From Actinophytocola xanthii (GTDB lineage: Bacteria; Actinomycetota; Actinomycetes; Mycobacteriales; Pseudonocardiaceae), in NCBI RefSeq assembly GCF_001921205.1, contig NZ_MSIE01000012.1, positions 1 to 33,071 of the forward strand: a stretch of 33,071 nucleotides of DNA, given 5' to 3'. Shown piece after piece: positions 13,244 to 30,893 of the stretch. Every line of letters starts with the position of its first letter. Positions within the stretch are counted from its first letter, which is position 1. The notes under the pieces were generated by a model. It was given only the letters and a program-made list of their open reading frames with translations. It had not been told where the DNA came from and searched no databases. Made by a program: the position numbers and the translations under genes.

Positions 13244-13933
13244 ATGGCCCGCCTGAACTACACCGAGCTCAACGAGAAGGTCGTCTACACGATGTGGTCG
13301 GTGTTCCGCGCCGAACCCGGCCGCCTGGCCGACCGCGGCTCCGCCGCCACCGAGGTGACCGAGTACCTGGACGCGCTCGCGGGCAAGGGTGTCACCGTGC
13401 GCGGCGTGTACGACGTGGCAGCCCTGCGGGCCGACGCGGACTACCTCATCTGGTGGCACGCCGAGGAGATCGAGCAGTTGCAGGCCGCCTACAGCGGCTT
13501 CCGCCGTACCGCGCTCGGCCGCGCGTCCACTCCGGTCTGGAGCCAGGCCGCACTGCACCGGCCGGCGGAGTTCAACAAGAGCCACATCCCGGCGTTCGTC
13601 GCCGGTGAGCCGGCTCGCCGGTACGTCTGCGTCTACCCGTTCGTCCGGTCCTACGAGTGGTACCTGCTGCCCGACGAGGAGCGCCGCGACATGCTCGCCG
13701 AGCACGGGCGGATGGCACGCGACTACCCGGACGTGCGGGCCAACACCGTGCCCGCGTTCGCCCTCGGCGACTACGAGTGGATCCTGGCCTTCGAGGCCGA
13801 CGCGCTCGACCGGATCGTCGACCTCATGCGCGAGCTGCGGGCCAGCCGGGCGCGCCGGCACGTCCGCGAGGAAGTGCCGTTCTACACCGGCCCGATGGTG
13901 CCGCCGGCCGAGCTGGTCGCGAACCTGCCCTGA
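13244..13933 (+). CDS. hemQ: Coproheme decarboxylase, HemQ/ChdC (chlorite-dismutase fold)
   Basis: Converts coproheme III to heme b using peroxide, the last step of the coproporphyrin-dependent pathway. The 229-residue length is typical. The catalytic tyrosine is predicted as Tyr131 in [14 protein letters not shown] and the proximal heme ligand as His154 in [13 protein letters not shown]. Their spacing of 23 residues matches Streptomyces coelicolor ChdC (Tyr135/His158) as I recall. The segments [20 protein letters not shown] and REEVPFYTG are highly typical of actinobacterial HemQ. It starts 15 bases after hemY with only a weak GGGACG upstream. It ends 13 bases before the metallophosphoesterase, so all four genes are probably cotranscribed. 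Confidence 0.96.
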
Positions 13934-13946
13934 GTACGCTACGGCG

Positions 13947-14699
13947 GTGATCATCGGCCACGTCAGCGACCTGCACTTCGGCCACGACCTCGACGGCGAC
14001 GGCGGAGCACGGGCGACCCGCCGAGCACACCAGGTGCTCGACTACCTCGAGCGCCTCCCGGGCGAGGTCGACGTCCTGCTGGTCACCGGCGACATCGCAG
14101 ACCACGGGTTACCGGCCGAGTACTTCGAGGCGGCCCGACTGCTCGGCGCCTCCCGGTTCCCGGTGCTCACCTGCCCTGGCAACCACGACGAGCGTTCCGC
14201 CTACCGGGCGGTCTTCCCGGACGGCCGGGCGGACGGGCCGGTCAACCAGGTGCACCGGGTGGCCGGGGCGACGTTCGCGATGTGCGACTCGAGCATTCCC
14301 GGCCGTGCGGACGGCCTGCTCGACGAGGAGACGATCGGCTGGTTGGACGAGGTGCTCTCGGCCGTGCCGCGGGAGGAGCCGGCGTTCGTCTGCTTCCACC
14401 ATCCGCCGGTGCGCCTGGAAGTTCCGTTCGTCGACGACATCCGGCAGTTCGGCGAGGAGCGCCTGGCCGAGCTTCTCGGGCGGCACCAGCAGGTCGTCGC
14501 CGTCCTGTGTGGACACGCTCACACGGCCGCGGCCACCACCTTCGCCGGCCGCCCACTGCTGGTGGCCCCCGGCGTGGTGTCGACGATCGTGCCGCCCCTG
14601 GAGAGCGACACGATCGTCGACTACCGGTTACCGCCCGGGTTCGCCTTCCACGTCCTCACTGACGATCGCCGGCTGGTGACTCACTTCCGCAGCTTGTAG
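13947..14699 (+). CDS. Calcineurin-like metallophosphoesterase (CpdA-type)
   Basis: A 250-residue dinuclear metallophosphatase of the cyclic-nucleotide phosphodiesterase/Icc-like group. All motifs are intact: Asp8/His10 (HVSDLHFG), Asp49 (VTGDIADHG), Asn79-His80-Asp81 (CPGNHDE), His151 (CFHHPP) and GHAH (189-192). The natural substrate is uncertain. The GTG at 13947 lies directly before the first metal-binding strand. No Shine-Dalgarno is visible; translation may be coupled to hemQ, or leaderless from a TACGCT hexamer upstream. Its last 19 bases overlap, tail to tail, the end of protease copy A. Its 3' part contains a long inverted repeat (14579-14621), and a decayed copy of its C-terminal end lies at 21541-21620 downstream of protease copy C. 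Confidence 0.92.
   Translation: MIIGHVSDLHFGHDLDGDGGARATRRAHQVLDYLERLPGEVDVLLVTGDIADHGLPAEYFEAARLLGASRFPVLTCPGNHDERSAYRAVFPDGRADGPVNQVHRVAGATFAMCDSSIPGRADGLLDEETIGWLDEVLSAVPREEPAFVCFHHPPVRLEVPFVDDIRQFGEERLAELLGRHQQVVAVLCGHAHTAAATTFAGRPLLVAPGVVSTIVPPLESDTIVDYRLPPGFAFHVLTDDRRLVTHFRSL
14579..14621. repeat. Inverted repeat inside the 3' end of the metallophosphoesterase gene
   Basis: The arm GTCGACGATCGTG (14579-14591) pairs perfectly with CACGATCGTCGAC (14609-14621). After one mismatch, three more pairs extend the stem inward, giving about 17 positions in total. It lies within coding sequence, encoding the STIVPP to DTIVD part. It could work as a bidirectional terminator between the convergent metallophosphoesterase and protease A transcripts. 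The same structure, without the mismatch, recurs at 21542-21584. Confidence 0.65.
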
Positions 14700-17600
14700 G
14701 CATCGAGGATGGTCTGGCGGACGGTGTTGCCCTCGCGGTCGGTGGCGTCCGCCCGCAGTGAGACGGTCTGGGCGTCTGCGGGGTGGTGTAGCACGGCGGT
14801 CAGGTTTGCCGTGATGCGCACCGGTTGCCAGGTCGTGCCGCGGTCGTAGGAGACCTCGACCCGGATGGACCTGGGTTTGGTCGTCGCGCCGGTCTGGTCC
14901 TGCATCCGCAGTGGCACGAGGAACTGGCGGCCGGCGGGTGCGGAGTTGGTCCTGTCCAGCTCCGGGAGGAACCTGACCGCGTTGAGCTCGATCGCCACCG
15001 GCTCCTTTCCGTCCACATGGGAGGAGGTGAAGGTGTACTCGGCACTGATCGACGTCGTCGTGTCGAACATCGCCGGGCGGGTGGCCGTTGTCACCAGGTG
15101 GTATCGGCCGGGTTCGGCGGGCAGTCCCTCGAAGGTGCCGTGGCCGGGATACGGCGTCTCGCCGAGCAGCTCGCCGCCGCGGTAGAGCTGGGTGCGCGCC
15201 GTCTCGACGGCGAGGAAGTAGCCGGCGTTGCCGGATGAGTCGCTGAACAGCGGAATGTCCACCTCGAGGGTATCGCCGGTCCGGTGGCTACGGGGGGCGT
15301 CGGTCGGCGGCAGCGCCGGGCCGAACACCGCGTAGTTGAAGCGCGGCTCGTAGGTGCGCCCGGCCCGGTACGTGGTGGGCGGCGAGGTCAGCTCCGCGAT
15401 GCGTGTCTCGGACTCCGGGTGGTAGAAGCGCAGCTTCGTGGTCCAGCGCGTGCCGCCCTCGGTGGTGAGGTACTGGGTGCGGATGCCGGGCAAAGGCACG
15501 TCGAAGTCGATGCCGGACGGGAACGCGGTCCCGACGCGCGGTTCCGGGATCGCGAAGAGCTGACCGGTGACGTTCTCGGCCGAGGGACCGAAGTCGGCTC
15601 GCACGGTCGCGAGGTCCTGGGGGCGTACCACCTTGTCGAACCCGGTGGGCAGCTCGCCCTCGGGGAACCAGGACAGGCCATAGGACGAGCCGTTCCCGCC
15701 CAGCCAGTGGGTGTTGATCATGCTGATGAGCGTGGTGCCCGGCAGCACCTTCCCGACCTGCGCCGTGGAGACGGCGCTCAGGTCCTCAACGAGGAACGTC
15801 AAGCCTGTACCGAGGAGCTGGCCTTGGGCCCGGTACCCGATGTCGCCCGCCCTCAGGTCCACCTCGGCCGGGGGTGTGACGCGGATCGGCCTGGTGTGCC
15901 GCGCGTCCATGGTCACCGTGCGGGGACGGTCCACGGACAGACCCGGGGCCAGCAGGAGATGCGTGTGTCCGGTCTCCTCGTTGTACACGTGGACGTCGAG
16001 CAGGTACTGGCCCTTGGGCAGGCGGAGCGTGGTCGTACCGCCCTCGCCGTAGATGTCCGGGGTGTAGAGACGGTTGTCCATCCCCGCCAACGTGAACTTG
16101 AAATCGCTCGGCTCGCCGTTGTGGTCCAGGACCTTGACCGTGAGGTCGTAGCTCTCCCCCTCGCGGGTGACCGCCAGGGGTGTTCTCGTCGTCGTTCCGG
16201 CTCCGGTCGCCACGACCGCTCCGGTGTAGACGCCGTCGGTCTCGCCGAGGCGGGTGTTGGCGGTGACGGTGACCGAGGCGGTGCCGCCGGCGGGCACGGT
16301 GAGCTTGTCGGCGCTGAGGGAGAACAGGTCGGCGGGTGCGCCGTCCGGTCCGGTGGCGTCGGCCGACAGGGTGAGCACGAGGTCGGTGTCGCCCAGGTTC
16401 TGGTAGGTGAGTTCCCGGTTGACCGGCTCGTCGTCGTGGTGGGGCCAGGCCACCGTGCCGAGGCCGAGGCTGGTCGGCTTGGTGATCAGGGTCTGGGTCA
16501 GTGCCGCGGGGATGTCGACCCGGCCGGCGCCCTGTTCGAACGGGCTCAGGGACGGGTGCGGCCGGGCCGAGGCGGAGAGGGCGGCCTTGAGCTGGGCGCC
16601 GGTCCAGTCCGGGTGCTGCTGGGCCAGCAGTGCCGCGGCGCCCGCCACGTGCGGGGCGGCCATGGAGGTGCCGGACAGGGCGGTGTAGCCGTCGGAGACG
16701 GGTTCGCCGATGGTGCCGTCGGCGTGTCGTGCGGCGACGATGTCGACGCCGGGGGCGGTGATGTCGGGTTTGATCCCGCCGTCACCGACCCGCGGCCCAC
16801 GGCTGGAGAACCGGGCCAGCTCGTCGTCGCGGTCCACCGCGCCGACGGTCAGTGCGGCCGCGGCGCTGCCGGGCGAGCCGATCGTGCCAGGGTTGGGTCC
16901 GGCGTTGCCGGCGGCGATGACGAAGAGCGTGCCGTGTTCGGCGGAGAGGGTGTCGACGGCTTCCTCGAGTGGGTCGAGTTCCTCGGTGTCCTCGCCGCCC
17001 AGGCTCATGTTGACCACGTCGGCGCTCTGTTCGGTGGCCCATTCCATGCCGGCGATGATCCAGGAGTCGAGGCCCCAGCCCTCGTCGTTGAGTACCTTGC
17101 CGTCGAGGATGCGCGTTCCCGGGGCGACGCCGCGGAATCTCCCGTCGGACTTCGCGCCGGTGCCGGCGACGATCGAGGCGACGTGGGTGCCGTGTCCGAC
17201 CCGGTCGACTGCGTCGGGCGAGTCGGTGAGGTTGTGTTCGGCAACCTCACGGTCGGCGAGGTCGGGATGGGTCTGGTCGACTCCGCTGTCGAGCACCGCC
17301 ACCGTCGTGCCCGTGCCCGTCAGTCCCGCCTCCCAGGCGGTGGGGGCGCCGATCTGCGGGACGCTGTGCTCCAAGGTGGACTGTCGTTTGCCGTCAAGCC
17401 AGATCTTCTCGATGCCGCCGGCGGTTCGGCGGGTGGTGGTGCCGTCGGTGAGCGTTTCCCAGGTCTTGCTTCCCTTGTCGGCATTCAGGGCGACGGCGTC
17501 GATGCTGGGTAGTTCCCGGGTGACGGAGGTGGCCGCCAGCCGGGGAGCCCGTCCCTCGCCATGGGTGACGATCAGGGGGATGGTCTCCCGGGCGGCGTCG

Positions 17601-17944
17601 TCGTAGCCGAACTCGAGCAGCGTGGTCACGTCGAACAACCGCCGGTCCAGGCGGCCCCGCGCCACCAACCCTGCCGCATCGGTCGGGACCACGTAGTCGT
17701 GCCCGTCATGGCTGCGGACGGAGAAGGTGGTTCCCTCCCGGCCATTGCCCGGCCGGACCGATCCCACCTTTCCGTCCCGGACCACGACCTGGTCCCCGGT
17801 CACCAGCGTGACCGTGCGAACCTCGCCGGCTGTCCCCGGAACGGCCGGCGCGGCTCCCGGTGGCGCCGCGCCGGCCGCCGGGGTGGTGGCGAGCACCGAC
17901 CCGAGTACTACCCCGCAGACCGCGGTTCTCCTGCTGATTCCCAC
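14681..17944 (-). CDS. Secreted S8 family serine peptidase (subtilisin-like), tandem copy A
   Basis: Predicted exported subtilisin of 1087 residues. A signal peptide (1-~27) contains GVVLGSVLATTPAAGAA. A propeptide-like region (~40-200) includes EVRTVTLVTGDQVVV and ends near HSVPQIGA. The S8 domain (~205-485) has Asp219 (VAVLDSGVDQTHPDL), His251 (GHGTHVASIVAG), Asn347 (AAGNAGP) and Ser427 (LSGTSMAAPHVAGA), so it should be active. About 600 residues of beta-rich accessory sequence follow, including a segment LRLPKGQYLLDVHVY like carboxypeptidase regulatory folds, ending LDAYKLRK. GTG 17944 is chosen because GGAGG lies seven bases upstream and the signal peptide starts there. A longer ATG-initiated frame from 18070 would bury the signal peptide. 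It is closest to copy C over most of its length. Its end overlaps the metallophosphoesterase by 19 bases. Confidence 0.93.
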   Translation of the reverse strand: MGISRRTAVCGVVLGSVLATTPAAGAAPPGAAPAVPGTAGEVRTVTLVTGDQVVVRDGKVGSVRPGNGREGTTFSVRSHDGHDYVVPTDAAGLVARGRLDRRLFDVTTLLEFGYDDAARETIPLIVTHGEGRAPRLAATSVTRELPSIDAVALNADKGSKTWETLTDGTTTRRTAGGIEKIWLDGKRQSTLEHSVPQIGAPTAWEAGLTGTGTTVAVLDSGVDQTHPDLADREVAEHNLTDSPDAVDRVGHGTHVASIVAGTGAKSDGRFRGVAPGTRILDGKVLNDEGWGLDSWIIAGMEWATEQSADVVNMSLGGEDTEELDPLEEAVDTLSAEHGTLFVIAAGNAGPNPGTIGSPGSAAAALTVGAVDRDDELARFSSRGPRVGDGGIKPDITAPGVDIVAARHADGTIGEPVSDGYTALSGTSMAAPHVAGAAALLAQQHPDWTGAQLKAALSASARPHPSLSPFEQGAGRVDIPAALTQTLITKPTSLGLGTVAWPHHDDEPVNRELTYQNLGDTDLVLTLSADATGPDGAPADLFSLSADKLTVPAGGTASVTVTANTRLGETDGVYTGAVVATGAGTTTRTPLAVTREGESYDLTVKVLDHNGEPSDFKFTLAGMDNRLYTPDIYGEGGTTTLRLPKGQYLLDVHVYNEETGHTHLLLAPGLSVDRPRTVTMDARHTRPIRVTPPAEVDLRAGDIGYRAQGQLLGTGLTFLVEDLSAVSTAQVGKVLPGTTLISMINTHWLGGNGSSYGLSWFPEGELPTGFDKVVRPQDLATVRADFGPSAENVTGQLFAIPEPRVGTAFPSGIDFDVPLPGIRTQYLTTEGGTRWTTKLRFYHPESETRIAELTSPPTTYRAGRTYEPRFNYAVFGPALPPTDAPRSHRTGDTLEVDIPLFSDSSGNAGYFLAVETARTQLYRGGELLGETPYPGHGTFEGLPAEPGRYHLVTTATRPAMFDTTTSISAEYTFTSSHVDGKEPVAIELNAVRFLPELDRTNSAPAGRQFLVPLRMQDQTGATTKPRSIRVEVSYDRGTTWQPVRITANLTAVLHHPADAQTVSLRADATDREGNTVRQTILDAYKLRK

Positions 17945-18000
17945 CTGGCACCCTCCCTCGAGGTTGTGTCCGAGGGCCCCACGGTGCCGGGCTCGACGAA

Positions 18001-18045
18001 AACTGCCATCGGCCATTCGGCCAGTGTTGTTGGGACTAAATATTT
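18001..18045 (-). promoter_or_regulatory. Upstream element of protease A shared with protease C
   Basis: On the coding strand, TTAGTCCCAAC is followed by CACTGGCCGAATGGCCGA, centred on the imperfect palindrome GGCCATTCGGCC (plus-strand 18011-18022), 67 bases upstream of the GTG. The corresponding region of protease C carries the same order of elements with a perfect palindrome. It is a candidate operator or promoter-proximal site. It is absent from the region upstream of protease B. Confidence 0.5.
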
Positions 18046-18085: not shown

Positions 18086-21000
18086 TCATCTCCGCAGCTT
18101 GTAGGCGTCGATGAGCGTCTGGTGCACGGTGTTGCCCTCGCGGTCGGTGGCCTCCGCCCGCAGCGAGACGGTCTGGGCGTCGGCGGGGTGGTGCAGGACC
18201 GCTGTCAGGTTTCCCGTGATCCGCACCGGTTGCCAGCTCGTGCCGCGGTCGTAGGAGGCCTCGACCGTGATCGACCTGGGTTTGGTCGTCGCGCCGGTCT
18301 GGTCCTGCATCCGCAGTGGCACGAGGAACTGGCGGCCGGCGGGTGCGGAGTTGTTGTCGTCCAGTTCTGGGAGGAACCGGACCGCGTTGAGGTCGACCGC
18401 CTCCGGCTCTTCACCATCCACATGGACCGAAGTGAACGTCCACTCCGCGCTGACGGACGTGGTGGTGTCGAACAGCTTCGGGCGGGTGGCCGTTGTGACC
18501 AGCCGGTACCCGCGGGGTTCCGCGGGCAGCCCCTCGAAGTAGCCGCCGCTGTACGACGACTCGCCGATCAGCTCGTCGCCCAGGTACAGCTCGGTGCGAG
18601 CTGACTCCGTGACGGTGTAGCCGGCGTTGCCCGAGGAGTCGCCGAACAGGGGAATGGCCACGTCGAGATCATCGCCGGACCGGCCGGCCCACGGCCACCG
18701 TGCCGGTGGTAGCGCCGGTCCGAACACCGCGTGGTTGATCCGCAGTGGGTAGGTGCGGCCCGCTCGGTACGCGGTGGGCGGCGTGCGGAAAAACGCGACC
18801 GGGTCTCTCGTCTCCGCGTCCTCGAGATCCAGGGACGTGGACCAGAGGACGCCGGCGTCGGTGTTGACGTACTCGGTGCGGGCTCCGGGTACGGGCACCT
18901 CAACAAGGCGGTCCACCACCACGTTCTTGCCTGACACCGGGAACACCGATCGCACACCGAGGAGCCCTTCGGACGCGGGGCCGAACTCGGCCCGCAGTGT
19001 CGCGAGGTCCCGTTGGCGCACCTCCTTCTCGAACCCGTTCGGCAGCCCGCCCTCCGGGAACCAGGACAGACCGTAGAAGGAGCCGTTCTGGGCGAGCCAC
19101 CGTGTGATGACCTCACCGGAGATCGTGGTGCCGGGCAGGGCGTCCCCGAGGTGAGCCGTGGAAATGGTGGTCTCACCGGAAATGAGCACCGCCGTACCTC
19201 TGCTGGTGAACTCGTTCTCCACCATGGTCCCGATCTGGCTCAGAAGTTGCTCCGCGGCAACCGGCGGGGTTACGCGGACAGGCCGTGTCCGTCGGGTGTC
19301 GGCGGTCACGGTGAGGTTCCGGTCCACCACGAGACCCGGATGCATCATCACGTCGAAGTGGCTGGTCTGCTCCTGGTAGCCCACAACGTCGAGAAGGTAG
19401 TGGCCCTTGGGCAGGCGGAGACGGACCGAGCCGTCCTCGTCGTACGGTATCTCCTCGGCGTCGCTGTCCAGCCCGCGCAGCATCATGTCGTACTCGGGGG
19501 TGGGCTCACCGTCGGGGCCGAGGACGTTGACAGTGAGGTCGTAGCTCTCCACCTCGCGGGTGACGGCCAGGGGTGTCCTGGTTGTCGACTGGCCGGTGGT
19601 CGCCATGACCGCGCCGGAGTACACACCGTCGCTCCCGCCGAGGCGGGTGTCGGCGGTGACGGTGACCGAGGCGGTGCCGCGGGCTGGAACGGTGAGTCGG
19701 GTGGTGCTGAGTGAGAAGAGGTCGGCGGGTGTGCCGTTGGGGCCGGTGGCCTCGGTGGACAGGGAGAGTGTGAGGTCTGTTTCGCCCAGGTTTTCGTAGG
19801 TCAGCTCCTGGTACAGCGGCTCGTCGTCCTCGTGCGGCCAGGTTGCCGTCCCAAAGTTGACGCTGGCCGGCTGGGTGACGACGGTCTGGGCCAGTGCCGC
19901 GGGAACGTCGACCCGCCCGGCGCCCTGGTCGAACGCGGTGAGCGAGGGGTGGGGGCGGGCCGAGCCGGCGAGGGCGGCCTTGAGCCGGGTGCCGGTCCAG
20001 TCCGGGTGCCGCTGGGCGAGCAGCGCGGCGGCGCCGGCCACGTGCGGCGTGGCCATCGAGGTACCCGACAAGGCGGTGTAGCCGTCCACCACCGGCTCGC
20101 CCACGGTGCCTTCGGAGTGCCGTGCGGCCACGATCTCCACCCCGGGTGCGGTGATGTCGGGTTTGATGCCGCCATCGCCGACTCGCGGCCCACGACCGGA
20201 GAACTCGGCGATCTCGTCGTTTCGGTCGACCGCACCGACGGTGAGCGCCGCGGCGGCGCTGCCCGGCGAGTCGATCGACTCCGCGCCCGGGCCCCAGTTG
20301 CCGGCGGCGATGACGAAGAGTGTGCCGTGTTCGGCGGAGAGGGCGTTGACCGCTTCCTCGAGCGGGTCGAGTTCTGTGGTGTCGGTACCGCCCAAGCTCA
20401 TGTTGACGATGTCGGCGCCCTGTTCGGCTGCCCATTCCATGCCGCCGATGATCCAGGAGTCGAGGCCTCCGCCGGAGTCGTTGAGCACCTTGCCGTCGAG
20501 GATCCGTGCTCCGGAGGCGACGCCGCGGAACCGGCCGTCGGATTTCGCCCCGGTGCCCGCGACGATCGAGGCGACGTGCGTCCCGTGTCCCACCCGGTCG
20601 ACGTTGTCCGGGGCGTCGGTGAAGTTCTGTTCGGCCGCCTCGCGGCCGGCGAGGTCGGGGTGAGTCTGGTCGACACCGGTGTCGAGTACGGCCACAGTGG
20701 TGCCGTCGCCGGTGTAGCCGGCTTCCCAGGCAGTGGGGGCGCCGATCTGCGGCACGCTGTGCTCCACAGTGGACTTCCGCTTGCCGTCGAGCCAGATCTT
20801 CTCGACGCCGCCGGTGGTTCGGCGGGTGGTCGTGCCGTCGGTGAGCGCTTCCCAGGTCTTGCTTCCCTTGTCGGCGTTCAGGGCGACCGCGTCGATGCTG
20901 GGCAGCTCCCGCGTGGCGGTGGTGGCGGCAAGGCGGGGTGCGGGGCGGTTCTCGGGGTGGGTGACGATCAGCGGCAGGGTGTCCCGGTCGGCGTCGCCGT

Positions 21001-21340
21001 AGCCCGATTCGAGCAGGGTCTGTACGTCGAACAAGCGCCGGTCCAGGCGGCCCTGCGCCAGCAACCGTGCCGCATCCGTCGGGACCACGTAATCGTGCCC
21101 GTCCCGGCTGCGGACCGAGAAGGTGATTCCCTCCCGGCCCTCACCTGGCTGGACCGATCTCACCCTGCCGTTCTGGACCATGACCTGATCCCCGGTCACC
21201 AACGTGACCGTTCGGATCTCGCCGCTGCCCGCTCGGTCAGGTGGTGTCGTTTCCGGTGGCGCGGCGGCGGCCGCGGGGGCGGTGGCGAGCACCGTCCCGA
21301 GGACCACCCCGCAGATTCCGGTTCTTCTGCTGGTTCGCAC
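18086..21340 (-). CDS. Secreted S8 family serine peptidase (subtilisin-like), tandem copy B
   Basis: Second subtilisin paralogue, 1084 residues, same architecture as copy A. The signal peptide contains GVVLGTVLATAPAAAAA. The propeptide-like region contains TVTLVTGDQVMVQNG. The catalytic residues are Asp220, His252, Asn348 and Ser428 (LSGTSMATPHVAGA). It differs from A and C beside the oxyanion Asn (AAGNWGP) and strongly in the middle of the accessory region, for example LRGLDSDAEEIPYDEDGS. Yet its final 302 bases (18090-18391) are identical to those of copy C. GTG 21340 is chosen from the signal peptide and an upstream GAGGAAGG. An open frame to 21574 adds a non-signal-like extension. It lacks the palindromic upstream element of A and C, so its regulation may differ. 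Confidence 0.92.
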   Translation of the reverse strand: MRTSRRTGICGVVLGTVLATAPAAAAAPPETTPPDRAGSGEIRTVTLVTGDQVMVQNGRVRSVQPGEGREGITFSVRSRDGHDYVVPTDAARLLAQGRLDRRLFDVQTLLESGYGDADRDTLPLIVTHPENRPAPRLAATTATRELPSIDAVALNADKGSKTWEALTDGTTTRRTTGGVEKIWLDGKRKSTVEHSVPQIGAPTAWEAGYTGDGTTVAVLDTGVDQTHPDLAGREAAEQNFTDAPDNVDRVGHGTHVASIVAGTGAKSDGRFRGVASGARILDGKVLNDSGGGLDSWIIGGMEWAAEQGADIVNMSLGGTDTTELDPLEEAVNALSAEHGTLFVIAAGNWGPGAESIDSPGSAAAALTVGAVDRNDEIAEFSGRGPRVGDGGIKPDITAPGVEIVAARHSEGTVGEPVVDGYTALSGTSMATPHVAGAAALLAQRHPDWTGTRLKAALAGSARPHPSLTAFDQGAGRVDVPAALAQTVVTQPASVNFGTATWPHEDDEPLYQELTYENLGETDLTLSLSTEATGPNGTPADLFSLSTTRLTVPARGTASVTVTADTRLGGSDGVYSGAVMATTGQSTTRTPLAVTREVESYDLTVNVLGPDGEPTPEYDMMLRGLDSDAEEIPYDEDGSVRLRLPKGHYLLDVVGYQEQTSHFDVMMHPGLVVDRNLTVTADTRRTRPVRVTPPVAAEQLLSQIGTMVENEFTSRGTAVLISGETTISTAHLGDALPGTTISGEVITRWLAQNGSFYGLSWFPEGGLPNGFEKEVRQRDLATLRAEFGPASEGLLGVRSVFPVSGKNVVVDRLVEVPVPGARTEYVNTDAGVLWSTSLDLEDAETRDPVAFFRTPPTAYRAGRTYPLRINHAVFGPALPPARWPWAGRSGDDLDVAIPLFGDSSGNAGYTVTESARTELYLGDELIGESSYSGGYFEGLPAEPRGYRLVTTATRPKLFDTTTSVSAEWTFTSVHVDGEEPEAVDLNAVRFLPELDDNNSAPAGRQFLVPLRMQDQTGATTKPRSITVEASYDRGTSWQPVRITGNLTAVLHHPADAQTVSLRAEATDREGNTVHQTLIDAYKLRR
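18090..18391. repeat. 302-bp direct repeat, copy 1 (3' end of protease B)
   Basis: Base-by-base reading shows 18090-18391 identical to 21623-21924 (offset 3533). The two genes diverge immediately beyond each edge. The tract encodes the last ~100 residues of proteases B and C. Perfect identity including third codon positions indicates recent gene conversion or recombination. Confidence 0.88.
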
Positions 21341-21618
21341 GTGGCACCCTTCCTCGTGGAGGGGGCGGCCCATGGCGCGGCACGCTTCGCCGCGTGTCTC
21401 TCCGACGAGACCCGGCGCCCCCGGTTCCGTTTCGCGGGCACCACGCTGCCGCATCCGCCGAGAGGCGAGGATCAGCCGATGGGTCGGTTCCTTGGTGAAC
21501 AACAAGCTCTCTGGCGTGCAACCTGATGAGGTGGTCCCAGCGTCGACGATCGTGCCGCCCCGTGGGAGCGGCACGATCGTCGACTGCCGGCTGCCGCCGA
21601 CGTGGACCGTTCAGGCAC
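21341..21618. other. Spacer between proteases B and C
   Basis: A 278-base spacer upstream of protease B and downstream of protease C. The left part holds the ribosome-binding site of B (GAGGAAGG about 8 bases before the GTG). No palindrome like that of A and C is present, and I see no recognisable promoter. The right part, from about 21541, is the metallophosphoesterase remnant with a perfect hairpin, described separately. Confidence 0.6.
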
Positions 21619-21620
21619 TT
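21541..21620 (+). pseudogene. Remnant of the metallophosphoesterase 3' end downstream of protease C
   Basis: This stretch translates on the plus strand as STIVPPRGSGTIVDCRLPP followed by TWTVQALT. The C-terminal end of the intact metallophosphoesterase reads STIVPPLESDTIVDYRLPP and GFAFHVLT. At DNA level 20 bases from 21542 are identical to 14579-14598, and a second block, ACGATCGTCGACT, also matches. Homology runs to the protease 3' end, except that about 24 bases present after the LT codons in the intact gene are missing here. Nothing upstream of 21535 resembles the rest of the gene. It is therefore a truncated copy carried along when a protease plus its downstream neighbour was duplicated. 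Confidence 0.8.
21542..21584. terminator. Perfect 17-bp hairpin downstream of protease C
   Basis: The arm GTCGACGATCGTGCCGC (21542-21558) is the exact complement of 21568-21584, with a nine-base loop. It lies 35 bases beyond the stop of protease C and about 200 bases upstream of protease B on the same strand. It is a likely terminator or attenuator between C and B, although no T-tract follows. It is the counterpart of the one-mismatch hairpin in the metallophosphoesterase gene. Confidence 0.65.
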
Positions 21621-24600
21621 ACCTCCGCAGCTTGTAGGCGTCGATGAGCGTCTGGTGCACGGTGTTGCCCTCGCGGTCGGTGGCCTCCGCCCGCAGCGAG
21701 ACGGTCTGGGCGTCGGCGGGGTGGTGCAGGACCGCTGTCAGGTTTCCCGTGATCCGCACCGGTTGCCAGCTCGTGCCGCGGTCGTAGGAGGCCTCGACCG
21801 TGATCGACCTGGGTTTGGTCGTCGCGCCGGTCTGGTCCTGCATCCGCAGTGGCACGAGGAACTGGCGGCCGGCGGGTGCGGAGTTGTTGTCGTCCAGTTC
21901 TGGGAGGAACCGGACCGCGTTGAGCTCGATCGCCTCCGGCTCCTTCCCGTCCACATGGGACGAGCTGAACGTCCACTCGGCGCTCATCGACGTCGTCGTG
22001 TCGAACGTCTTCGGTCGGGTGACGGTGGTCGTCAGCCGGTAGCGGCTCTCCTCCGCGGGCAGTCCTTCCATCGTGCCGCTGCCCGCGGTCGGTGTCTCGG
22101 CGAGCAGCTCGTCGCCGCGGTACAGCCGGGTGCGCGCGGAACCGGTATACGAGAAGCCCGCATTGCCCGACGAATCCCCGAAAAGCGGGATGTTCAGCTC
22201 GAGGTCGTCGCCGACCCGATAGGCCCACGGGTCGTCGTTCCTCGGCAGCGCCGGGCCGAACACCGCGTAGTTGAAACGTGCCTGGTAGGTCTGCCCGGCC
22301 CGGTAGGCAGTGGCCGGCGACCGCAACGACCCGTGTCGCTGCGCGGTCTCCGGGTCGTCGAGGACCAGCTCGGTGCTCCACCGCGTGCCGCCCTCGGTCG
22401 AGAAGTACTCGGTGCGGGCGCCGGGCACCGGCACCGGGCGGCCGATGCCGAGCCCGAACGTGGCACCCGTGCGAGGGTGCGGGTACACAAAACGCAAGGC
22501 GTTGACGTTCTCGGCCGTGGGGCCGAAGTCCGCGCGCACTGTTGCGAGGTCCTGCTGGCGTACCACCTTGTCGAACCCGGTCGGCAGCTCGCCCTCCGGG
22601 AACCAGGACAGGCCGTAGAACGAGCCGTCCTCATCGAGCCAGTGGGTGTTGACCCTGCCGGTGAGGGTGGTGCCCGGCAGCTCGTCCCCGACCTGAGCCG
22701 TGGAGATCCTGCTCAGGTCGTCGAAGAGGACCCCCAGCCCTGTGGTGCCCGCCTCGGTCTCGACCCGGTACGCGATATCGCCCAGCACCAGGTCCACGTC
22801 CTCGCGCGGCGGGGTGACCCGGACCGGCCTTGTCCGGCGCGCGTCCATCGTGACGGTGAGGTCCCGGTCCACCAGCAGTCCCGGGGCCGCCAGGAGGTGA
22901 CCGTGCCCGGTCTGCTCGTCGGACACCAGGACGTCGAGCAGGTACTGGCCCTTGGGTAGTCGGACCTGGAACGAGCCGTCCTCCTCGGAGAAGGACTCGT
23001 AGGTGCTGTTGTCGAGCCCCGCCAGCGTGGCCTGGCTGAGGGCGGCCGGTCCACCGTTCTGGTCGAGCATGTTCACCGTCAGGTTGTAGCTCTCCACCTC
23101 ACGGTCGATCGCGAGCGGTGTCCTCGTCGTCGTCCCGGGCCCGGTGGCCACCACCGCGCCGGAGTACACGCCGTCGGTCTCGCCGAGGCGGGTGTTGGCG
23201 GTGACGGTGACGGTGGCTGTGTCGCCGGCGGGGATGGTGAGTTCGGTGGTGTTGAGGGAGAAGAGGTTGGTTGGTGTGCCGTCGGGTCCGGTGGCGTCGG
23301 TGGTCAGGGAGAGGGTGAGGTCGGTGTCGCCGAGGTTGTGGTAGGTCAGCTCCTTGCTGACCGGCTCGTCGTCGTCATGCGGCCAGGCCGCGACGCCCAG
23401 GCTGATGCTGGTGGGTTCGGTGACGATGCTCTGGGCGAGTGCCGCGGGCACGTCGACCCGGCCGGCGCCTTGTTCGAAGGGTGTGAGGGAGCGGTGTGGA
23501 CGGGCCGAGGCGGAGAGGGCGGCTTTGAGTTGGGTGCCGGTCCAGTTGGGGTGGCGTTGGGCCAGGAGTGCCGCGGCGCCGGCCACGTGTGGTGCGGCCA
23601 TCGAGGTGCCTGAGATGGCTGTGTAACCGCCGACGACGGGTTCACCGACGGTGCCGTTGGCGTGTCGTGCGGCGATGATGTCGACGCCGGGTGCGGTGAT
23701 GTCGGGTTTGATGCCGCCGTCGCCGGCCCGCGGTCCACGCGCTGAGAATTCGGCGAGGTCGTCGTTTCGGTCCACGGCGCCGACGGCGAGTGCGGCGGCC
23801 GCGCTGCTCGGCGACTCGACCGTGCCCGCGCCGGGGCCGGCGTTGCCGGCGGCGACGACGAACAGCGTGCCGTGCTCGGCGGAGAGGGTGTTGACCGCTT
23901 CCTCCACCGGGTCCAGCTCCTCGCCGTCATTGCCGCCCAGGCTCATGTTCACCACGTCCGCGCCCTGGTCGGCGGCCCATTCCATGCCGGCGATGATCCA
24001 GGAGTCCATGCCCCAGCCCTCGTCGTCGAGCACCTTGCCGTCGAGGATGCGCGCTCCGGACGCGACGCCGCGGTAGCGGCCACCGGATTTCGCGCCGGTG
24101 CCGGCGACGATCGAGGCGACGTGGGTGCCGTGTCCGATGCGGTCGACTGCGTCGGGTGCGTCGGTGAAGTTCTGTTCGGCGGCCTGACGGTCGGCGAGGT
24201 CGGGGTGGGTCTGGTCGACTCCGCTGTCGAGCACCGCCACCGTCGTGCCCGTGCCCGTCAGTCCCGCCTCCCAGGCGGTGGGGGCGCCGATCTGCGGGAC
24301 GCTGTGTTCGAGGGTGGGCTGTCGTTTGCCGTCGAGCCAGATCTTCTCGATGCCGCCGGTGGTTCGGCGGGTGGTGGTGCCGTCGGTCAGCGCTTCCCAG
24401 GCTCCGCCGCCCTTGTCGGCGTTCAGGGCGACCGCGTCGATGCTGGGCAGCTCCCGGCTGACGTTGGTGGCGGCCAGGCGGGGTGCGGGGCGGTTCTCGG
24501 GGTGGGTGACGATCAGCGGCAGGGTGTCCCGGGTGGCGTCGTCGTAGCCGAGTTCGAGCAGTGTTGTCACGTCGAACAACCGTTGGTCCAGGCGGCCCTG

Positions 24601-24885
24601 CGCCAGCAACCGTGCCGCATCCGTCGGGACCACGTGGTCGTGCCCGTCACGGCTGCGGACGGAGAAGGTGGTTCCCTCCCGGCCCTCACCCGGCCGGACC
24701 GAACTCACCCTGCCGTTCTGGACCATGACCTGGTCCCCGGTCACCAGCGTGACCGTGCGGACCTCGCCGGTCGTCCCGGGAGCCGGCGGCGCGGCTCCCG
24801 GTGGCGCCGCGCCGGCCGCCGGGGCGGTGGCGAGCACCGCACCCAGGACCACCCCGCATGTTCGAGACTTCCTGCCGAGTCGCAC
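21619..24885 (-). CDS. Secreted S8 family serine peptidase (subtilisin-like), tandem copy C
   Basis: Third subtilisin paralogue, 1088 residues. The signal peptide contains GVVLGAVLATAPAAGAA. The propeptide-like region includes EVRTVTLVTGDQVMVQNG. The S8 domain has Asp220 (VAVLDSGVDQTHPDL), His252 (GHGTHVASIVAG), Asn348 (AAGNAGP) and Ser428 (ISGTSMAAPHVAGA). A ~600-residue accessory region ends IDAYKLRR. Over the signal peptide, catalytic domain and middle region it is nearest to copy A, with 101 identical bases at 24206-24306 versus 17268-17368. Its last 302 bases are identical to copy B. GTG 24885 is chosen for the GGAGG four to five bases upstream and the adjacent signal peptide. It diverges from the GH87-like gene across a 241-base region, so the two may be co-regulated. 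Confidence 0.93.
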   Translation of the reverse strand: MRLGRKSRTCGVVLGAVLATAPAAGAAPPGAAPPAPGTTGEVRTVTLVTGDQVMVQNGRVSSVRPGEGREGTTFSVRSRDGHDHVVPTDAARLLAQGRLDQRLFDVTTLLELGYDDATRDTLPLIVTHPENRPAPRLAATNVSRELPSIDAVALNADKGGGAWEALTDGTTTRRTTGGIEKIWLDGKRQPTLEHSVPQIGAPTAWEAGLTGTGTTVAVLDSGVDQTHPDLADRQAAEQNFTDAPDAVDRIGHGTHVASIVAGTGAKSGGRYRGVASGARILDGKVLDDEGWGMDSWIIAGMEWAADQGADVVNMSLGGNDGEELDPVEEAVNTLSAEHGTLFVVAAGNAGPGAGTVESPSSAAAALAVGAVDRNDDLAEFSARGPRAGDGGIKPDITAPGVDIIAARHANGTVGEPVVGGYTAISGTSMAAPHVAGAAALLAQRHPNWTGTQLKAALSASARPHRSLTPFEQGAGRVDVPAALAQSIVTEPTSISLGVAAWPHDDDEPVSKELTYHNLGDTDLTLSLTTDATGPDGTPTNLFSLNTTELTIPAGDTATVTVTANTRLGETDGVYSGAVVATGPGTTTRTPLAIDREVESYNLTVNMLDQNGGPAALSQATLAGLDNSTYESFSEEDGSFQVRLPKGQYLLDVLVSDEQTGHGHLLAAPGLLVDRDLTVTMDARRTRPVRVTPPREDVDLVLGDIAYRVETEAGTTGLGVLFDDLSRISTAQVGDELPGTTLTGRVNTHWLDEDGSFYGLSWFPEGELPTGFDKVVRQQDLATVRADFGPTAENVNALRFVYPHPRTGATFGLGIGRPVPVPGARTEYFSTEGGTRWSTELVLDDPETAQRHGSLRSPATAYRAGQTYQARFNYAVFGPALPRNDDPWAYRVGDDLELNIPLFGDSSGNAGFSYTGSARTRLYRGDELLAETPTAGSGTMEGLPAEESRYRLTTTVTRPKTFDTTTSMSAEWTFSSSHVDGKEPEAIELNAVRFLPELDDNNSAPAGRQFLVPLRMQDQTGATTKPRSITVEASYDRGTSWQPVRITGNLTAVLHHPADAQTVSLRAEATDREGNTVHQTLIDAYKLRR
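21623..21924. repeat. 302-bp direct repeat, copy 2 (3' end of protease C)
   Basis: Identical to 18090-18391 at the 3' end of protease B. Within it, 81 bases (21806-21886) are also identical in protease A (14868-14948) and in B (18273-18353). Those bases encode the segment around NSAPAGRQFLVPLRMQDQTG. Confidence 0.88.
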
Positions 24886-25126
24886 TGGCACCTCCGATGG
24901 GGATGGGCGGGTCGTTCTGCCCGGGCAAGCTAGCCACGCGCCGGCGAAGGCGACCTCGGCCGATCGGCCAGTGCGTTGGGAACTAACCGAGAACTTTCTG
25001 ATCGACGCCGTTGACTTCCTGCAGCTTGTGCGCAACTCTGATTTGGATCACCGCAAAAAACGAGCAGACTGATGCAAATACCGATCATCCCGCTGTCCTG
25101 TCCGTCTCGACGATGAGAGCGACGCA
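24886..25126. promoter_or_regulatory. Divergent promoter region of protease C and the GH87-like gene, with a 12-bp palindrome
   Basis: A 241-base intergenic region, noticeably AT-richer from 24975 to 25110. It holds the perfect palindrome GGCCGATCGGCC (24958-24969), 73 bases upstream of the protease C start. On the C coding strand it is preceded by TTAGTTCCCAAC. Both features recur upstream of protease A. On the plus strand a TTGACT (near 25010) resembles a -35 box, but no well-spaced -10 is convincing. A five-codon ATG reading frame (25113-25130) overlaps the GH87-like start as ATGA. Confidence 0.5.
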
Positions 25127-28100
25127 ATGAGAGCGAAGAGAGTCGTGTCCTGGCTGACCGCCTCGGCACTGGTCACCGGGGTGTTCGCGGTGACCGGCCA
25201 GTCGAGCGCCGCGGCCGAACCCCATCCCGCCGACCTCGCCCATGGCCGATCGGTCATATCGAGCGACGGCGGTTCGAGTACGGCCGCCGTCACCGACGGG
25301 GACGCCGAGACCTACTGGGAGAGCTCCACCGCCCGGCAGCGGTGGTTGCGCGTCGACCTCGGGAGGACGGCCCGGCTCGGCGAGCTCGTACTGAAGGTCC
25401 CGTCCGGATGGGACAGCCGCTCGCAGGTGCTGGCCGTGCGTACCGGCGCGGAGACCGGCGCCATGCAGACCGCGGTCGCCGCGGCGCCACGGGTCTTCGA
25501 CCCCGCCAAGGACAACACGGTCCGCCTCCAGCTCGCCGGCGTCACGGCCCGCTTCGTGCAGCTCGACTTCACCAACAACGGCGGCCGGGACACCGCCCAG
25601 CTGGCGGAGCTGCAGGTGTTCCCGGCGCGGGTGTCCACCCGCGACCTCGTCCGCGCCGTCTCGACGAGCAGCTCGCTGGGTCAGTACCCCGCCAGCAACG
25701 CCACCGACGGCAACCCGGCCACCTACTGGGAGAGCACCAACAACGCCTTCCCGCAGTGGATCCAGGTCGACCTCGGCGCGGTCGTCGCGGTCAACCGCGT
25801 GGTGTTGGCGCTGCCGCCCGGCTGGGAGGCGAGGACCCAGACCATGGCCCTGCGGCGCAGCGAGAACGGCTCCGCGTTCAGCGATCTGGTCGCCTCCACC
25901 GGCTACCGGTTCGACCCCTCGACGCAGAACAGGGTCACCATCGACTTCGCCCAGACCAGCACGCGGTACCTGCGGGTGCACATCACCGCGAACACCGCCT
26001 GGCCCGCCGGGCAGGTCGGCGAGGTGACGGTACTCGGTCCGGCCACCGGCGACACCGAGGCGCCGAGCGCACCGACCAACCTGGCCCTGACCCAGCCGGC
26101 GAGCGGGCAGATCCGGCTGACCTGGCAGGCGAGCAGCGACAACGTCGGCGTGTCCGGGTACAACGTCTACGCCAACGGTTCGCTGCGGACCAGCGTCGGC
26201 GCCGGGGTTCTCACGTTCACCGACACCCAGCCGGCGAGCGCGACCGTGACCTACCACGTCCGCGCGCGGGACGCGGCGGGCAACGAGTCCGCCAACAGCA
26301 ACGCCGTGGTCCGCACCGGCACCACCCAGGGCACGAACCTGGCCCTGGGCAAGCCCATCACCGCTTCCGGCCACGTGCACACGTTCGTCGCCACCAACGC
26401 CAACGACGACTCGCTGACCACCTACTGGGAGGGCAACGGCGGGGCCTACCCCAACACCCTGACCGTGAGCCTCGGGTCGAACGCCACGATCACCTCGGTC
26501 GTGGTGAAGCTGAACCCCGACCCCGTCTGGGGCCCGCGCCGGCAGACCTTCGAGGTACTGGGCCGGGACCAGGACGCCTCCTCGTTCACCACGCTGGCCC
26601 CCTCGGCCGGCTACGACTTCAACCCGGCCAGCGGCAACGCCGTGACCGTCCCGGTCACGGCGACGGCGGCGGAGCTGCGGTTGCGGTTCACCGCGAACAC
26701 CGGTGCTCCCGCGGGGCAGGTGGCCGAGCTGCAGGTCATCGGCGAGCCGGCGCCGAACCCGGATCTCACCGTCACCGGGCTGAGCTGGACGCCCACGGCG
26801 CCGTCGGAGAGCGACACGGTGACCCTGTCGGCCACCGTGCGCAACGCGGGGGAGCGTCCCGCACCCGCCGCTCCGGTGACCTTCCAGCTCGGCGCGGACG
26901 AGGTGGGCACGGCCCGGGTCGGTGCCCTCGCCGCCGGTGCGAGCGCCACCGTGACGGCGAACATCGGCGCGCGCGACGCGGGCAGCTACCCCGTGCGTGC
27001 CGTCGTGGACGTCGACGACGAGGTCGTGGAGAAGGACGAGACCAACAACGCGTTCACCAGCTCGTCCTCGCTCGTGGTGACCGCGGTACCGACCTCAGAC
27101 CTGGTCGCGTCCTCGGTCAGCTGGACGCCGACCAGCCCGCGCGAGGGCACCGCGGTGACCTTCTCGGTGGCGATCCGCAACCAGGGAACGGTCGCCTCCG
27201 CCGGCGGCAGCCACGGCATCACGCTCACCCTGGTCAACGCGACGACCGGTGCGACGGTCCGCACGCTGACCGGCGCGTTCACCGGCACCATCGCCGCGGG
27301 CGCGGCCACCGGGCCGGTCAACCTGGGCACCTGGACGGCCGCCAACGGCCGGTACACGGTGCGGGTGGCGCTGGCGGCCGATGCCAACGAGCTGCCGGCC
27401 AAGCAGCCCAACAACACCTCCACCCACAGCCTGTTCGTCGGTCGCGGGGCGAACATGCCCTACGACATGTACGAGGCCGAGGACGGACGGACCGGCGGCG
27501 GAGCCGCAGTGGTCGGTCCGAACAGGACGGTTGGCGACCTCGCCGGCGAGGCGTCGGGCCGTCGCGCGGTCACGTTGAACGGCAACGGCTCCTACGTGGA
27601 GTGGACCACCCGCGCGCCGACGAACACCCTGGTGACCCGGTTCTCGATCCCGGACGCCCCGGGCGGAGGCGGCATCAGCTCGACGCTGAACATCTACGTC
27701 AACGGCAGCTTCCACAAGGCTGTCTCGCTGACCTCGAAGTACGCCTGGCTCTACGGCAACGAGGCGAGCCCCGGCAACTCGCCGAGCGCCGGCGGCCCGC
27801 GGCACATCTACGACGAGGCCAACGTCATGCTCGACTCGTCGGTACCGGCGGGCAGCACGATCCGGCTGCAGAAGGACCCGGCCAACAACACCACCTACGC
27901 GATCGACTTCGTGAGCCTCGAGCAGGTCTCACCAACCGCGAACCCAGACCCGGCGCGGTACACCACGCCGACCGGGACCGGGCACCAGGACGTGCAGAAC
28001 GCCCTGGACCGGGTGCGGATGGACACCACAGGGAACCTGGTCGGCGTCTACCTGCCCCCGGGCGACTACCAGACCACGAGCAAGTTCCAGGTGTACGGCA

Positions 28101-29122
28101 AGCCGGTACGGGTGGTCGGGGCCGGCCCGTGGTACACCAGGTTCCACGCACCGTCCACCCAGGAGAACTCGGACGTCGGGTTCCGCGCCGAGGGCTCCGC
28201 GAACGGGTCGCTGTTCTCCGGCTTCGCGTACTTCGGCAACTACACGATCCGCAACGACGGGCCGGGCAAGGTGTTCGACTTCGGCACGCACGCGAACTCG
28301 ACGATCGAGAACATCTGGGTCGAGCACTTCGTGTGCCTGTTCTGGGGCATGAACACCGACAACATGACCATCAGGAACAACCGGATCCGCAACATCTTCG
28401 CCGACGCGGTCAACATGACCAACGGCAGCTCCGGGAACCTGGTGTCCAACAACGAGTCCCGCGCCTCCGGTGACGACAGCTTCGCGCTGTTCAACGCTCA
28501 GGACGGCGGCGGCGGGGAGGTCACCGGCAACACCTACGAGAACCTGACGTCGATCCTGACCTGGCGGGCCGCCGGCATCGCGGCCTACGGTGGGTACAAC
28601 AACGTGTTCCGCAACATCTACGTCGCGGACACGCTGGTGTACTCCGGTGTCACGATCAGCTCGCTCGACTTCGGCATCCCGATGAACGGCTTCGGCGCCT
28701 CACCGCCGACCCGGTTCGAGAACATGTCGATCGTCCGGGCCGGTGGGCATTTCTGGGGCGCGCAGACCTTCCCGGGAATCTGGGTGTTCTCCGCGTCCAA
28801 GGTGTTCCAGGGCATTCGCGTGTCCGATGTGGACATCGTGGACCCGACCTACAGCGGGATCATGTTCCAGACGAACTACGACAACGGGCAGCCGCAGTTC
28901 CCGGTGGCGGACACCGTGTTCACCAACGTCTCGATCAGCGGTGCCCGCCGCAGCGGCGACCAGTTCGACGCGAAGTCCGGGTTCGGTATCTGGGTCAACG
29001 AGATGCCGGAGGCGGGCCAGGGCCCGGCCCGGGGCTCGGCGACGTTCACCAACCTGACCCTGACCAACAACGCGGTGGACATCAGGAACACGACGACGAC
29101 GTTCACGATCGTCCGGAACTGA
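25127..29122 (+). CDS. Secreted multidomain GH87-like alpha-1,3-glucanase (mycodextranase type)
   Basis: A 1331-residue exported protein. Order: signal peptide (1-~30, ending SSAAAE); two F5/8C discoidin-like modules (~32-166 and ~170-308, each with DG-A-TYWES); FN3 (~312-400); a third discoidin-like module (~405-540); two CARDB-like modules (~545-650 and ~655-775, with DLTVTGLSWTPTAP and DLVASSVSWTPTSP). A CBM35/CBM6-like module (~776-945, MYEAEDGRTGG) precedes a C-terminal parallel beta-helix (~950-1331). The helix has Asp1093 (FADAVN) and Asp1116/Asp1117 (SGDDSFALFN). This spacing resembles the three catalytic Asp of Paenibacillus Agl-FH1 (1045/1069/1070, from memory). GH87 enzymes hydrolyse alpha-1,3-glucan, as in fungal walls. 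ATG 25127 precedes a normal signal peptide. It diverges from protease C and is followed by a strong hairpin. A different beta-helix glycosidase remains possible. Confidence 0.85.
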   Translation: MRAKRVVSWLTASALVTGVFAVTGQSSAAAEPHPADLAHGRSVISSDGGSSTAAVTDGDAETYWESSTARQRWLRVDLGRTARLGELVLKVPSGWDSRSQVLAVRTGAETGAMQTAVAAAPRVFDPAKDNTVRLQLAGVTARFVQLDFTNNGGRDTAQLAELQVFPARVSTRDLVRAVSTSSSLGQYPASNATDGNPATYWESTNNAFPQWIQVDLGAVVAVNRVVLALPPGWEARTQTMALRRSENGSAFSDLVASTGYRFDPSTQNRVTIDFAQTSTRYLRVHITANTAWPAGQVGEVTVLGPATGDTEAPSAPTNLALTQPASGQIRLTWQASSDNVGVSGYNVYANGSLRTSVGAGVLTFTDTQPASATVTYHVRARDAAGNESANSNAVVRTGTTQGTNLALGKPITASGHVHTFVATNANDDSLTTYWEGNGGAYPNTLTVSLGSNATITSVVVKLNPDPVWGPRRQTFEVLGRDQDASSFTTLAPSAGYDFNPASGNAVTVPVTATAAELRLRFTANTGAPAGQVAELQVIGEPAPNPDLTVTGLSWTPTAPSESDTVTLSATVRNAGERPAPAAPVTFQLGADEVGTARVGALAAGASATVTANIGARDAGSYPVRAVVDVDDEVVEKDETNNAFTSSSSLVVTAVPTSDLVASSVSWTPTSPREGTAVTFSVAIRNQGTVASAGGSHGITLTLVNATTGATVRTLTGAFTGTIAAGAATGPVNLGTWTAANGRYTVRVALAADANELPAKQPNNTSTHSLFVGRGANMPYDMYEAEDGRTGGGAAVVGPNRTVGDLAGEASGRRAVTLNGNGSYVEWTTRAPTNTLVTRFSIPDAPGGGGISSTLNIYVNGSFHKAVSLTSKYAWLYGNEASPGNSPSAGGPRHIYDEANVMLDSSVPAGSTIRLQKDPANNTTYAIDFVSLEQVSPTANPDPARYTTPTGTGHQDVQNALDRVRMDTTGNLVGVYLPPGDYQTTSKFQVYGKPVRVVGAGPWYTRFHAPSTQENSDVGFRAEGSANGSLFSGFAYFGNYTIRNDGPGKVFDFGTHANSTIENIWVEHFVCLFWGMNTDNMTIRNNRIRNIFADAVNMTNGSSGNLVSNNESRASGDDSFALFNAQDGGGGEVTGNTYENLTSILTWRAAGIAAYGGYNNVFRNIYVADTLVYSGVTISSLDFGIPMNGFGASPPTRFENMSIVRAGGHFWGAQTFPGIWVFSASKVFQGIRVSDVDIVDPTYSGIMFQTNYDNGQPQFPVADTVFTNVSISGARRSGDQFDAKSGFGIWVNEMPEAGQGPARGSATFTNLTLTNNAVDIRNTTTTFTIVRN

Positions 29123-29130
29123 CCCTCCCG

Positions 29131-29164
29131 CCCGCGGGCACCGGCCGTTGTCGGTGCCCGCGGG
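29131..29164 (+). terminator. Hairpin terminator after the GH87-like gene
   Basis: A perfect 13-base inverted repeat, CCCGCGGGCACCG (29131-29143) and CGGTGCCCGCGGG (29152-29164), with an eight-base loop, starts nine bases after the stop codon. No T-tract follows. The right arm ends 12 bases before the next ATG, so the hairpin could also affect translation of the hydrolase on a read-through transcript. Confidence 0.7.
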
Positions 29165-30008: not shown

Positions 30009-30893
30009 TCAGCTGTGGACCTCGTCGACGCGGTGGAGGAGGCGGTGCTGGGCGTCCGGCTCGAGGACGAAGGGGGTGTCGTGCTCGTCGTCGGGGTCCC
30101 GCTCGTCGAGGAGGTCGGTCGCCTCGAGGAGCCAGGTGGTGGCGCCGGCGGAGACCAGGCCGGGGGTGTCGGCCAGTGCCTCGATGCCACCGGTCTGCTG
30201 GATCTGCCGCAGGGCGTCGGCCAGGCCGACCACGTCGCTCGGCTCGGCGTGGTCGGTGGGGTCCCAGGCGTCGTGGTAGGCCTCCTTGCCCGCCTGGACC
30301 ACCGCCGACTCGTCGGCGACGACGAAGTCGGCGCGGTGCAGGACGGTGAGGCGGAGGGCGGGCTCGGAGGCCCCCTCGATCTCGGACTCGGCCCCCTCGA
30401 TCTCGGACTCGGCCTCGTCGGACTCGGAGTCCTCGAGTTCGTCTTCCTCGAGTTCGTCTTCCTCGAGTTCGTCTTCGTCGAGTTCGTCTTCGTCGTCCAG
30501 GTCGGTGTCGTCCAGGTCGGTGTCGTCCAGGTCGGTGTCGTCCAGGTCGGTGTCGTCCAGGTCGGTGTCGTCCAGGTCGGTGTCGTCGAGGTCGGTGTCG
30601 TCGAGGTCGGTGTCGTCGAGGTCGTAGGTGTCCTCGTCCTCCTCGACCTCGTCGAGGCCGAGAGGGGGCACGGTGGCGCTGAGCTCGTACTGGGCGTCGG
30701 CGTAGGCCGCGGCGGCCTCGGCCAGGGCCTCGGCCACCTGGTCCACCGCCTCGGTGTCCTCGCCGACACCGGGCAGCTCCAGTACCGCCGCGCTGTGCTG
30801 GCGGATCGCCTCGACCAGGTTCGCCGCCGCGGTCCGGAACGACTCGCGGGCCTCGTCGGTCCACAGGGTGTCGTTCTCGTCCAGCTCCATCAT
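30009..30893 (-). CDS. Hypothetical highly acidic protein with DLDDT tandem repeats
   Basis: A 294-residue protein with no signal peptide or membrane segment. The N-terminal ~80 residues look helical (WTDEARESFRTAAANLVEAI and VAEALAEAAAAYADAQYELS). Residues ~88-135 are a pentapeptide array of eight DLDDT units, followed by DELDEDELEEDELEEDEL and two EIEGA-type repeats. The C-terminal ~110 residues look globular again (LRLTVLHRADFVVADESAVV and GLADALRQIQQTGGIEALAD). The flanking domains suggest a real conserved protein whose linker expanded by tandem duplication. A calcium-binding or charge-spacer role for the array is possible but unproven. Start choice is between adjacent ATGs at 30893 and 30890. 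It is convergent with the hydrolase, 46 bases away. I do not recognise the family. Confidence 0.8.
   Translation of the reverse strand: MMELDENDTLWTDEARESFRTAAANLVEAIRQHSAAVLELPGVGEDTEAVDQVAEALAEAAAAYADAQYELSATVPPLGLDEVEEDEDTYDLDDTDLDDTDLDDTDLDDTDLDDTDLDDTDLDDTDLDDTDLDDEDELDEDELEEDELEEDELEDSESDEAESEIEGAESEIEGASEPALRLTVLHRADFVVADESAVVQAGKEAYHDAWDPTDHAEPSDVVGLADALRQIQQTGGIEALADTPGLVSAGATTWLLEATDLLDERDPDDEHDTPFVLEPDAQHRLLHRVDEVHS
30495..30626. repeat. 15-bp tandem repeat array coding DLDDT units
   Basis: Eight copies of GTCGGTGTC occur at exact 15-base spacing, separated by GTCCAG or GTCGAG linkers. On the coding strand they encode Thr-Asp-Leu-Asp-Asp. The left five or so units carry GTCCAG and the right units GTCGAG, so sub-blocks were probably amplified separately. 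The array length is divisible by three, so copy-number change keeps the frame. Confidence 0.88.

Follow-up and report, generated by a model that had tools for sequence, protein, structure and literature searches.

A 57-nt piece of a metallophosphoesterase (MPE) gene lies downstream of protease C, one of three tandem subtilase genes in a 33,071-nt stretch of Actinophytocola xanthii DNA (the window), and most of this piece is a hairpin on the protease strand. We consider it probable that the hairpin is a 3'-end element of the protease message encoded antisense in the MPE gene, and that duplication of the protease carried the MPE end along; downstream of C mainly the hairpin would have been kept, where it may terminate or protect the protease C message. 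What the sequence itself shows is the homology, the sister relation of proteases A and C, and the hairpin together with where it lies and how it pairs. The features are as follows.

13947–14699, plus strand: MPE gene, intact, with a GTG start and a checked frame (Pfam Metallophos, E = 6.7e-17)
14579–14621, minus strand: hairpin antisense within the MPE coding sequence, nt 60–102 past the protease A stop, 20/20 pairs
14681–17944, minus strand: protease A, S8 subtilase (Pfam Peptidase_S8, E = 1.5e-63), included in the tree
18086–21340, minus strand: protease B, S8 subtilase by Pfam, 3' flank with neither an MPE piece nor a strong hairpin
21542–21584, minus strand: hairpin making up most of the remnant, nt 35–77 past the protease C stop, 20/20 pairs, 17-bp perfect arms
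21542–21598, plus strand: MPE 3'-end remnant, 57 nt, 88% identical to 14579–14635
21619–24885, minus strand: protease C, S8 subtilase by Pfam, sister of A (99/99)

The MPE remnant and its locus

The MPE gene encodes a calcineurin-like phosphoesterase (Pfam) and is convergent with protease A, whose end (14681) it overlaps by 19 nt. Besides the tandem copies A, B and C, the genome has a fourth, D, which is dispersed and lies on contig C48. The S8 family as a whole is expanded, with 34 matches to protease B in the genome, and two full S8 copies and a third piece stand in tandem at G000:C128:31836-39645. The gene order hemE, hemQ, MPE, protease, glucanase recurs in the genus (six genomes examined), and the protease stands tail to tail with the MPE gene in four of the six. 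One protease is present at the locus in G002, one in G005 and two in G004; in G003 the MPE gene is present and the protease absent, and G001, which has only a weak MPE relative, was left out of the locus comparison. The MPE gene is split over two frames in G004 (L048 7842-8584) and lies in three pieces in G005 (L049 6249-6999), through either decay or sequencing error. Elsewhere in the window, a minus-strand ORF (30009–30893) carries a run of DLDDT repeats.

The original prediction held that a piece of the MPE end lies downstream of protease C, between 21535 and 21620. A whole-genome search with the MPE/protease A junction confirms the homology (88% over 57 nt, E = 2.3e-13) and trims the span slightly, to 21542–21598 matching MPE 14579–14635. 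Local alignment of the remnant region with the MPE end, the check proposed with that prediction, gives a score of 82, far above the best of 2000 dinucleotide shuffles (35; 0/2000 reach 82), and tblastn with the MPE protein matches STIVPPRGSGTIVDCRLPP in the window (E = 2.6e-05). Against the MPE genes of the other loci the same region scores 79 (D), 46 (G005), 24 (G002) and 18 (G004). Past 21598 there are 20 nt in place of the 45 nt of the MPE gene, and the alignment there is unconvincing. The 3' flank of protease B has no MPE piece (score 16 against the MPE end, reached by 739/1000 shuffles), just as had been claimed, and none is found between the two G004 proteases (score 19, reached by 499/1000 shuffles).

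Tandem gene duplication can carry along a truncated flanking gene, and the neighbour's piece then marks an edge of the duplicated unit. Here the fragment is homologous to the neighbour and the protease copies concerned are sisters, which supports the proposal that the duplicated unit comprised the MPE 3' end plus the protease, the piece deriving from MPE. Among the six genus genomes (locus compared in all but G001), no further one showed an A/C pair together with this remnant; G004 is the only one of the other genomes with two proteases at the locus, and these group with each other (92/94).

Kinship of the protease copies

A tree of nine protease genes (first 2990 alignment columns) has the form ((A,C),B),D, with 99/99 support for A+C. 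The alternatives rejected by the AU test are A+B (p = 0.0006), B+C (p = 0.018), A+D (p = 0.0004), C+D (p = 7e-9) and B+D (p = 0.003). Support for A+C is weak in columns 1–600 (61/45) and rises to 97/97 in columns 600–1800 and 94/94 in columns 1800–2990. In the last 318 columns B groups with C instead (96/94), and at their ends (18086–18400 and 21619–21935) B and C are identical at 63/63 fourfold sites, unlike the remainder of the gene; we read this near-identity as recent conversion. The pairing of A with C is supported, and the argument from 'three independent criteria' in the original prediction is weakened. The upstream element invoked there is common to A, C and D (C/D match over 69 nt, E = 1e-11; A/C match over 32 nt, E = 4e-4) and, being also in D, is not a mark of A and C only. 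This element is palindromic (GGCCGATCGGCC-like), lies at 17945–18030 and 24895–24995 as well as before D, and is perhaps a promoter or operator.

Protease B branches outside A+C, yet sits between them. This would fit an order of events in which mpe'-protease-B was duplicated in tandem and the second B was then lost.

Copy D (L007, G000:C48 4973-9023) comprises an intact protease, an almost complete MPE gene and the final ~35 nt of hemQ, and window positions 13899–17963 align to it at 79.8%. Its MPE gene has a frameshift near codon 11, possibly an assembly error, and a GHAH to GYVH change, but with a dN/dS of 0.37 against the MPE of A we did not class it as a plain pseudogene. A recombinase-like ORF lies at 237–1664 on the same contig.

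The hairpin and its pairing pattern

The leftmost base of the homologous block is also where a near-perfect inverted repeat begins (arms 21542–21561 and 21565–21584); the corresponding arms in MPE are 14579–14595 and 14605–14621. The original prediction mentions neither this hairpin nor copy D. Perfect arms of at least 12 nt occur at three places in the window: in the remnant (17 bp), at the start of protease A (13 bp) and at 29131–29164 (13 bp). The last of these is a perfect hairpin directly past the alpha-1,3-glucanase gene (25127–29122) and a terminator candidate of its own. As downstream of A, the hairpin of D occupies nt 60–102 past the protease stop. RNA of the protease strand folds with z-scores of -5.25 (C), -4.11 (A), -4.77 (D) and -3.71 (G005), reached by 0/200 shuffles in each case. 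No strong hairpin is found in the 3' flank of protease B (z = -1.26; 22/200 shuffles fold as well).

Twenty stem positions were compared. On the protease strand 20/20 pair in A, 20/20 in the remnant, 19/20 in D and 18/20 in G005; on the MPE strand the values are 17, 19, 17 and 16 of 20. The four-sequence alignment has 77/80 paired cells on the protease strand versus 69/80 on the MPE strand. This hairpin is absent from G002 and G004, in each of which 10/20 positions pair on the protease strand. In 21 control MPE genes (the ungapped ones among 82 loci outside the test set; gapped rows excluded) 9–14 of 20 positions pair (mean 11.2), and the control loci have no relative of protease A detected at E = 1e-8. 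Three stem pairs have changed on both sides, with only four sequences compared; 7/500 shuffles reach this number, and slid versions give 0–1. Wobbles occupy eight cells, spread over four stem positions, and all are G.U on the protease strand and C.A on the MPE strand; the sample is small, in that three of the four hairpin-forming sequences come from one genome and position 18 has the same wobble in all four. One further wobble, in another hairpin of G002, has the same strand direction. Two substitutions in the MPE of D, T to M and V to I, preserve a stem pair. Fold energy of the MPE strand was uninformative as a discriminator (A ranks 10th of 87 and D first).

Hairpins of other kinds are found in related 3' flanks. 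Among 17 distinct family flanks of 120 nt (matches short of query residue 1070, flanks below 80 nt and repeats excluded), the longest stems are 20 (C), 20 (A), 16 (D), 17 (C32), 17 (L039), 21 (L046), 17 (G004_2) and 13 (G004_1, G002 and L037, the last no better than shuffles). In seven of the 17 (B, two of C128, L032, L036, L038 and G005) the longest unbroken stem is 6–8, in G005 because its stem is interrupted. G004_2 has its 17-bp hairpin from nt 6 past the protease stop. G002 and G004_1 have a different 13-bp hairpin inside MPE, from nt 8 past the stop and not at the site of the A hairpin, and all five MPE-abutting protease copies (A, D, G002, G004_1 and G005) consequently have a hairpin antisense in MPE. 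In the last 132 nt of MPE the longest antisense stem measures 20 (A), 16 (D), 13 (G002), 13 (G004) and 8 (G005), and a stem of at least 13 occurs in 6/82 controls. Sorted by a crude, GC3-based call of next-gene orientation, 5/39 convergent versus 0/42 co-oriented controls have such a stem (p = 0.022; one control was too short to score), a contrast on which we do not lean because all six carriers are Streptomyces records and probably not independent.

In one respect the hairpins of A, C and D look like intrinsic terminators, each being a stable GC-rich stem-loop shortly past the stop. No U-tract follows the stem (of the next 10 nt, none is U in A or D and one is U in C), and the hairpin is therefore not filed with the canonical intrinsic type; it would be terminator-like, a U-lacking terminator or a 3'-end protector. 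A dispersed REP-like repeat was also considered and rejected, as many paired copies near unrelated genes are not found in the genome: nine zero-mismatch arm matches exist, of which six form the A, C and D hairpins and three are single arms (arms with two mismatches were considered only among the matches listed).

Origin and possible role of the retained hairpin

In the scheme we favour, the protease of an ancestor within the genus ran tail to tail into the MPE gene, and the closing stretch of the MPE coding sequence contained, in antisense, the hairpin forming the 3' end of the protease message. Since the element would have been housed in the convergent neighbour, a tandem duplication of the protease with its 3' end would have taken the MPE 3' end along, giving MPE-A ... 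mpe'-C. Downstream of C mainly the hairpin, with its full 20-pair stem, would have been retained, and the other MPE sequence would have decayed. There the hairpin most probably ends the transcription of protease C, or shields the 3' end of its transcript, before polymerase can reach protease B on the same strand. We infer both this role and selection as the cause of retention. The stems of A and the remnant are identical at 38/40 positions (p = 0.0007 under neutrality of both lines, 0.097 under neutrality of the remnant line alone), which suggests retention by selection and does not prove it. Besides the small sample and the MPE-strand fold energy noted above, the following weighs against this scheme: B has no strong hairpin and the seven family flanks named above have no unbroken stem longer than 8; G002 and G004 do not form the A-type hairpin; and there is at most one U in the 10 nt past the stem. 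The term 'fossil' in the original prediction is right as to MPE origin and probably incomplete as a label, since the hairpin that was retained appears to serve the protease transcript.

The strongest competing account, which we nevertheless think unlikely, takes the piece as a neutral remnant: the MPE end came along by accident and decay has yet to erase it, its palindromic character is that of the MPE sequence at this place, and template switching between the arms brought the stem closer to perfection without selection. The 38/40 identity is not unusual if only the remnant line is neutral, A and C stand fairly close (375/505 fourfold sites identical), and DNA template switching can make or mend stems and so mimic compensatory change (PMC8794818). 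The near-complete loss of the sequence beside the hairpin (20 nt against 45 in MPE) does not sit well with such an account, nor does the direction of the wobbles, all G.U on the protease strand, since copying of one arm yields Watson-Crick arms. The separate hairpin in the same neighbouring MPE gene of G002 and G004_1 likewise counts against it.

Breakage at the base of the palindrome could instead have set the edge of the duplication, and the hairpin would then play no part in the message. Fragility of palindromic sites has been described (PMC7999016), and the homology does begin at the first base of the inverted repeat, an edge that could equally be the limit of retained sequence. Fragility leaves both the strand bias of the wobbles and the different MPE-embedded hairpin of G002 and G004_1 unexplained, and as the sole explanation it appears improbable; it is compatible with the retained 3'-end hairpin and does not exclude it.

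DNA palindromes are common operators, and protease B, which the remnant separates from C, starts some 200 nt away on the same strand; that the palindrome is a regulator-binding operator of protease B is very improbable, given the same palindrome 3' of A and D, inside MPE, and one-strand G.U-type deviations, which fit RNA rather than a protein site.

A retained 3'-end hairpin, our preferred reading, has partial counterparts in known systems. Streptomyces transcript ends lie at a median of 66–76 nt past the stop with few Us (PMC12207403); the hairpins here end at 77 nt (C) and 102 nt (A and D). The U-poor hairpin terminators of high-GC actinobacteria, with I-shaped or U-lacking 3' ends mapped in Streptomyces, are alike in having a long GC-rich stem soon past the stop and few Us (PMC8269248 and PMC12207403), and in S. 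clavuligerus 49/1,427 mapped ends fall in an opposite-strand ORF (PMC8269248). Those terminators have mapped 3' ends, whereas the present hairpin is known from sequence alone; unlike them, it is part of the coding end of a convergent gene, and its duplicated copy is free-standing as a gene fragment. Convergent-gene terminators of Bacillus cereus show compensatory stem changes, and one segment may serve or overlap two convergent genes (PMC5381666). The hairpin resembles these in having stem pairs that change on both sides, but they are predicted rho-independent terminators with poly-U (PMC5381666), whereas here the stem codes for the neighbour and no U-tract follows. With regard to the usual carried-over fragment, the difference is that what was kept here is at the same time a structured element, one read from the same strand as the duplicated gene. 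Hairpin ends in an opposite-strand gene and compensatory stem changes are already known; the new part is the copy freed by duplication and built from a coding end. Our literature searches recognised no described case of this kind, which is no proof of absence.

More tentatively, and short of an even chance in our judgement, the protease may depend on its antisense 3'-end element strongly enough to shape the MPE protein, as in the two pair-preserving substitutions of D, with duplication turning a freed gene fragment into a terminator and sister species using another MPE hairpin. If the reading is correct, it would explain how a duplicated gene comes to drag along a piece of its convergent neighbour, it would show how a fragment of coding sequence can persist in a regulatory function, and the locus would offer a natural test of the constraint that an antisense RNA element places on protein sequence.
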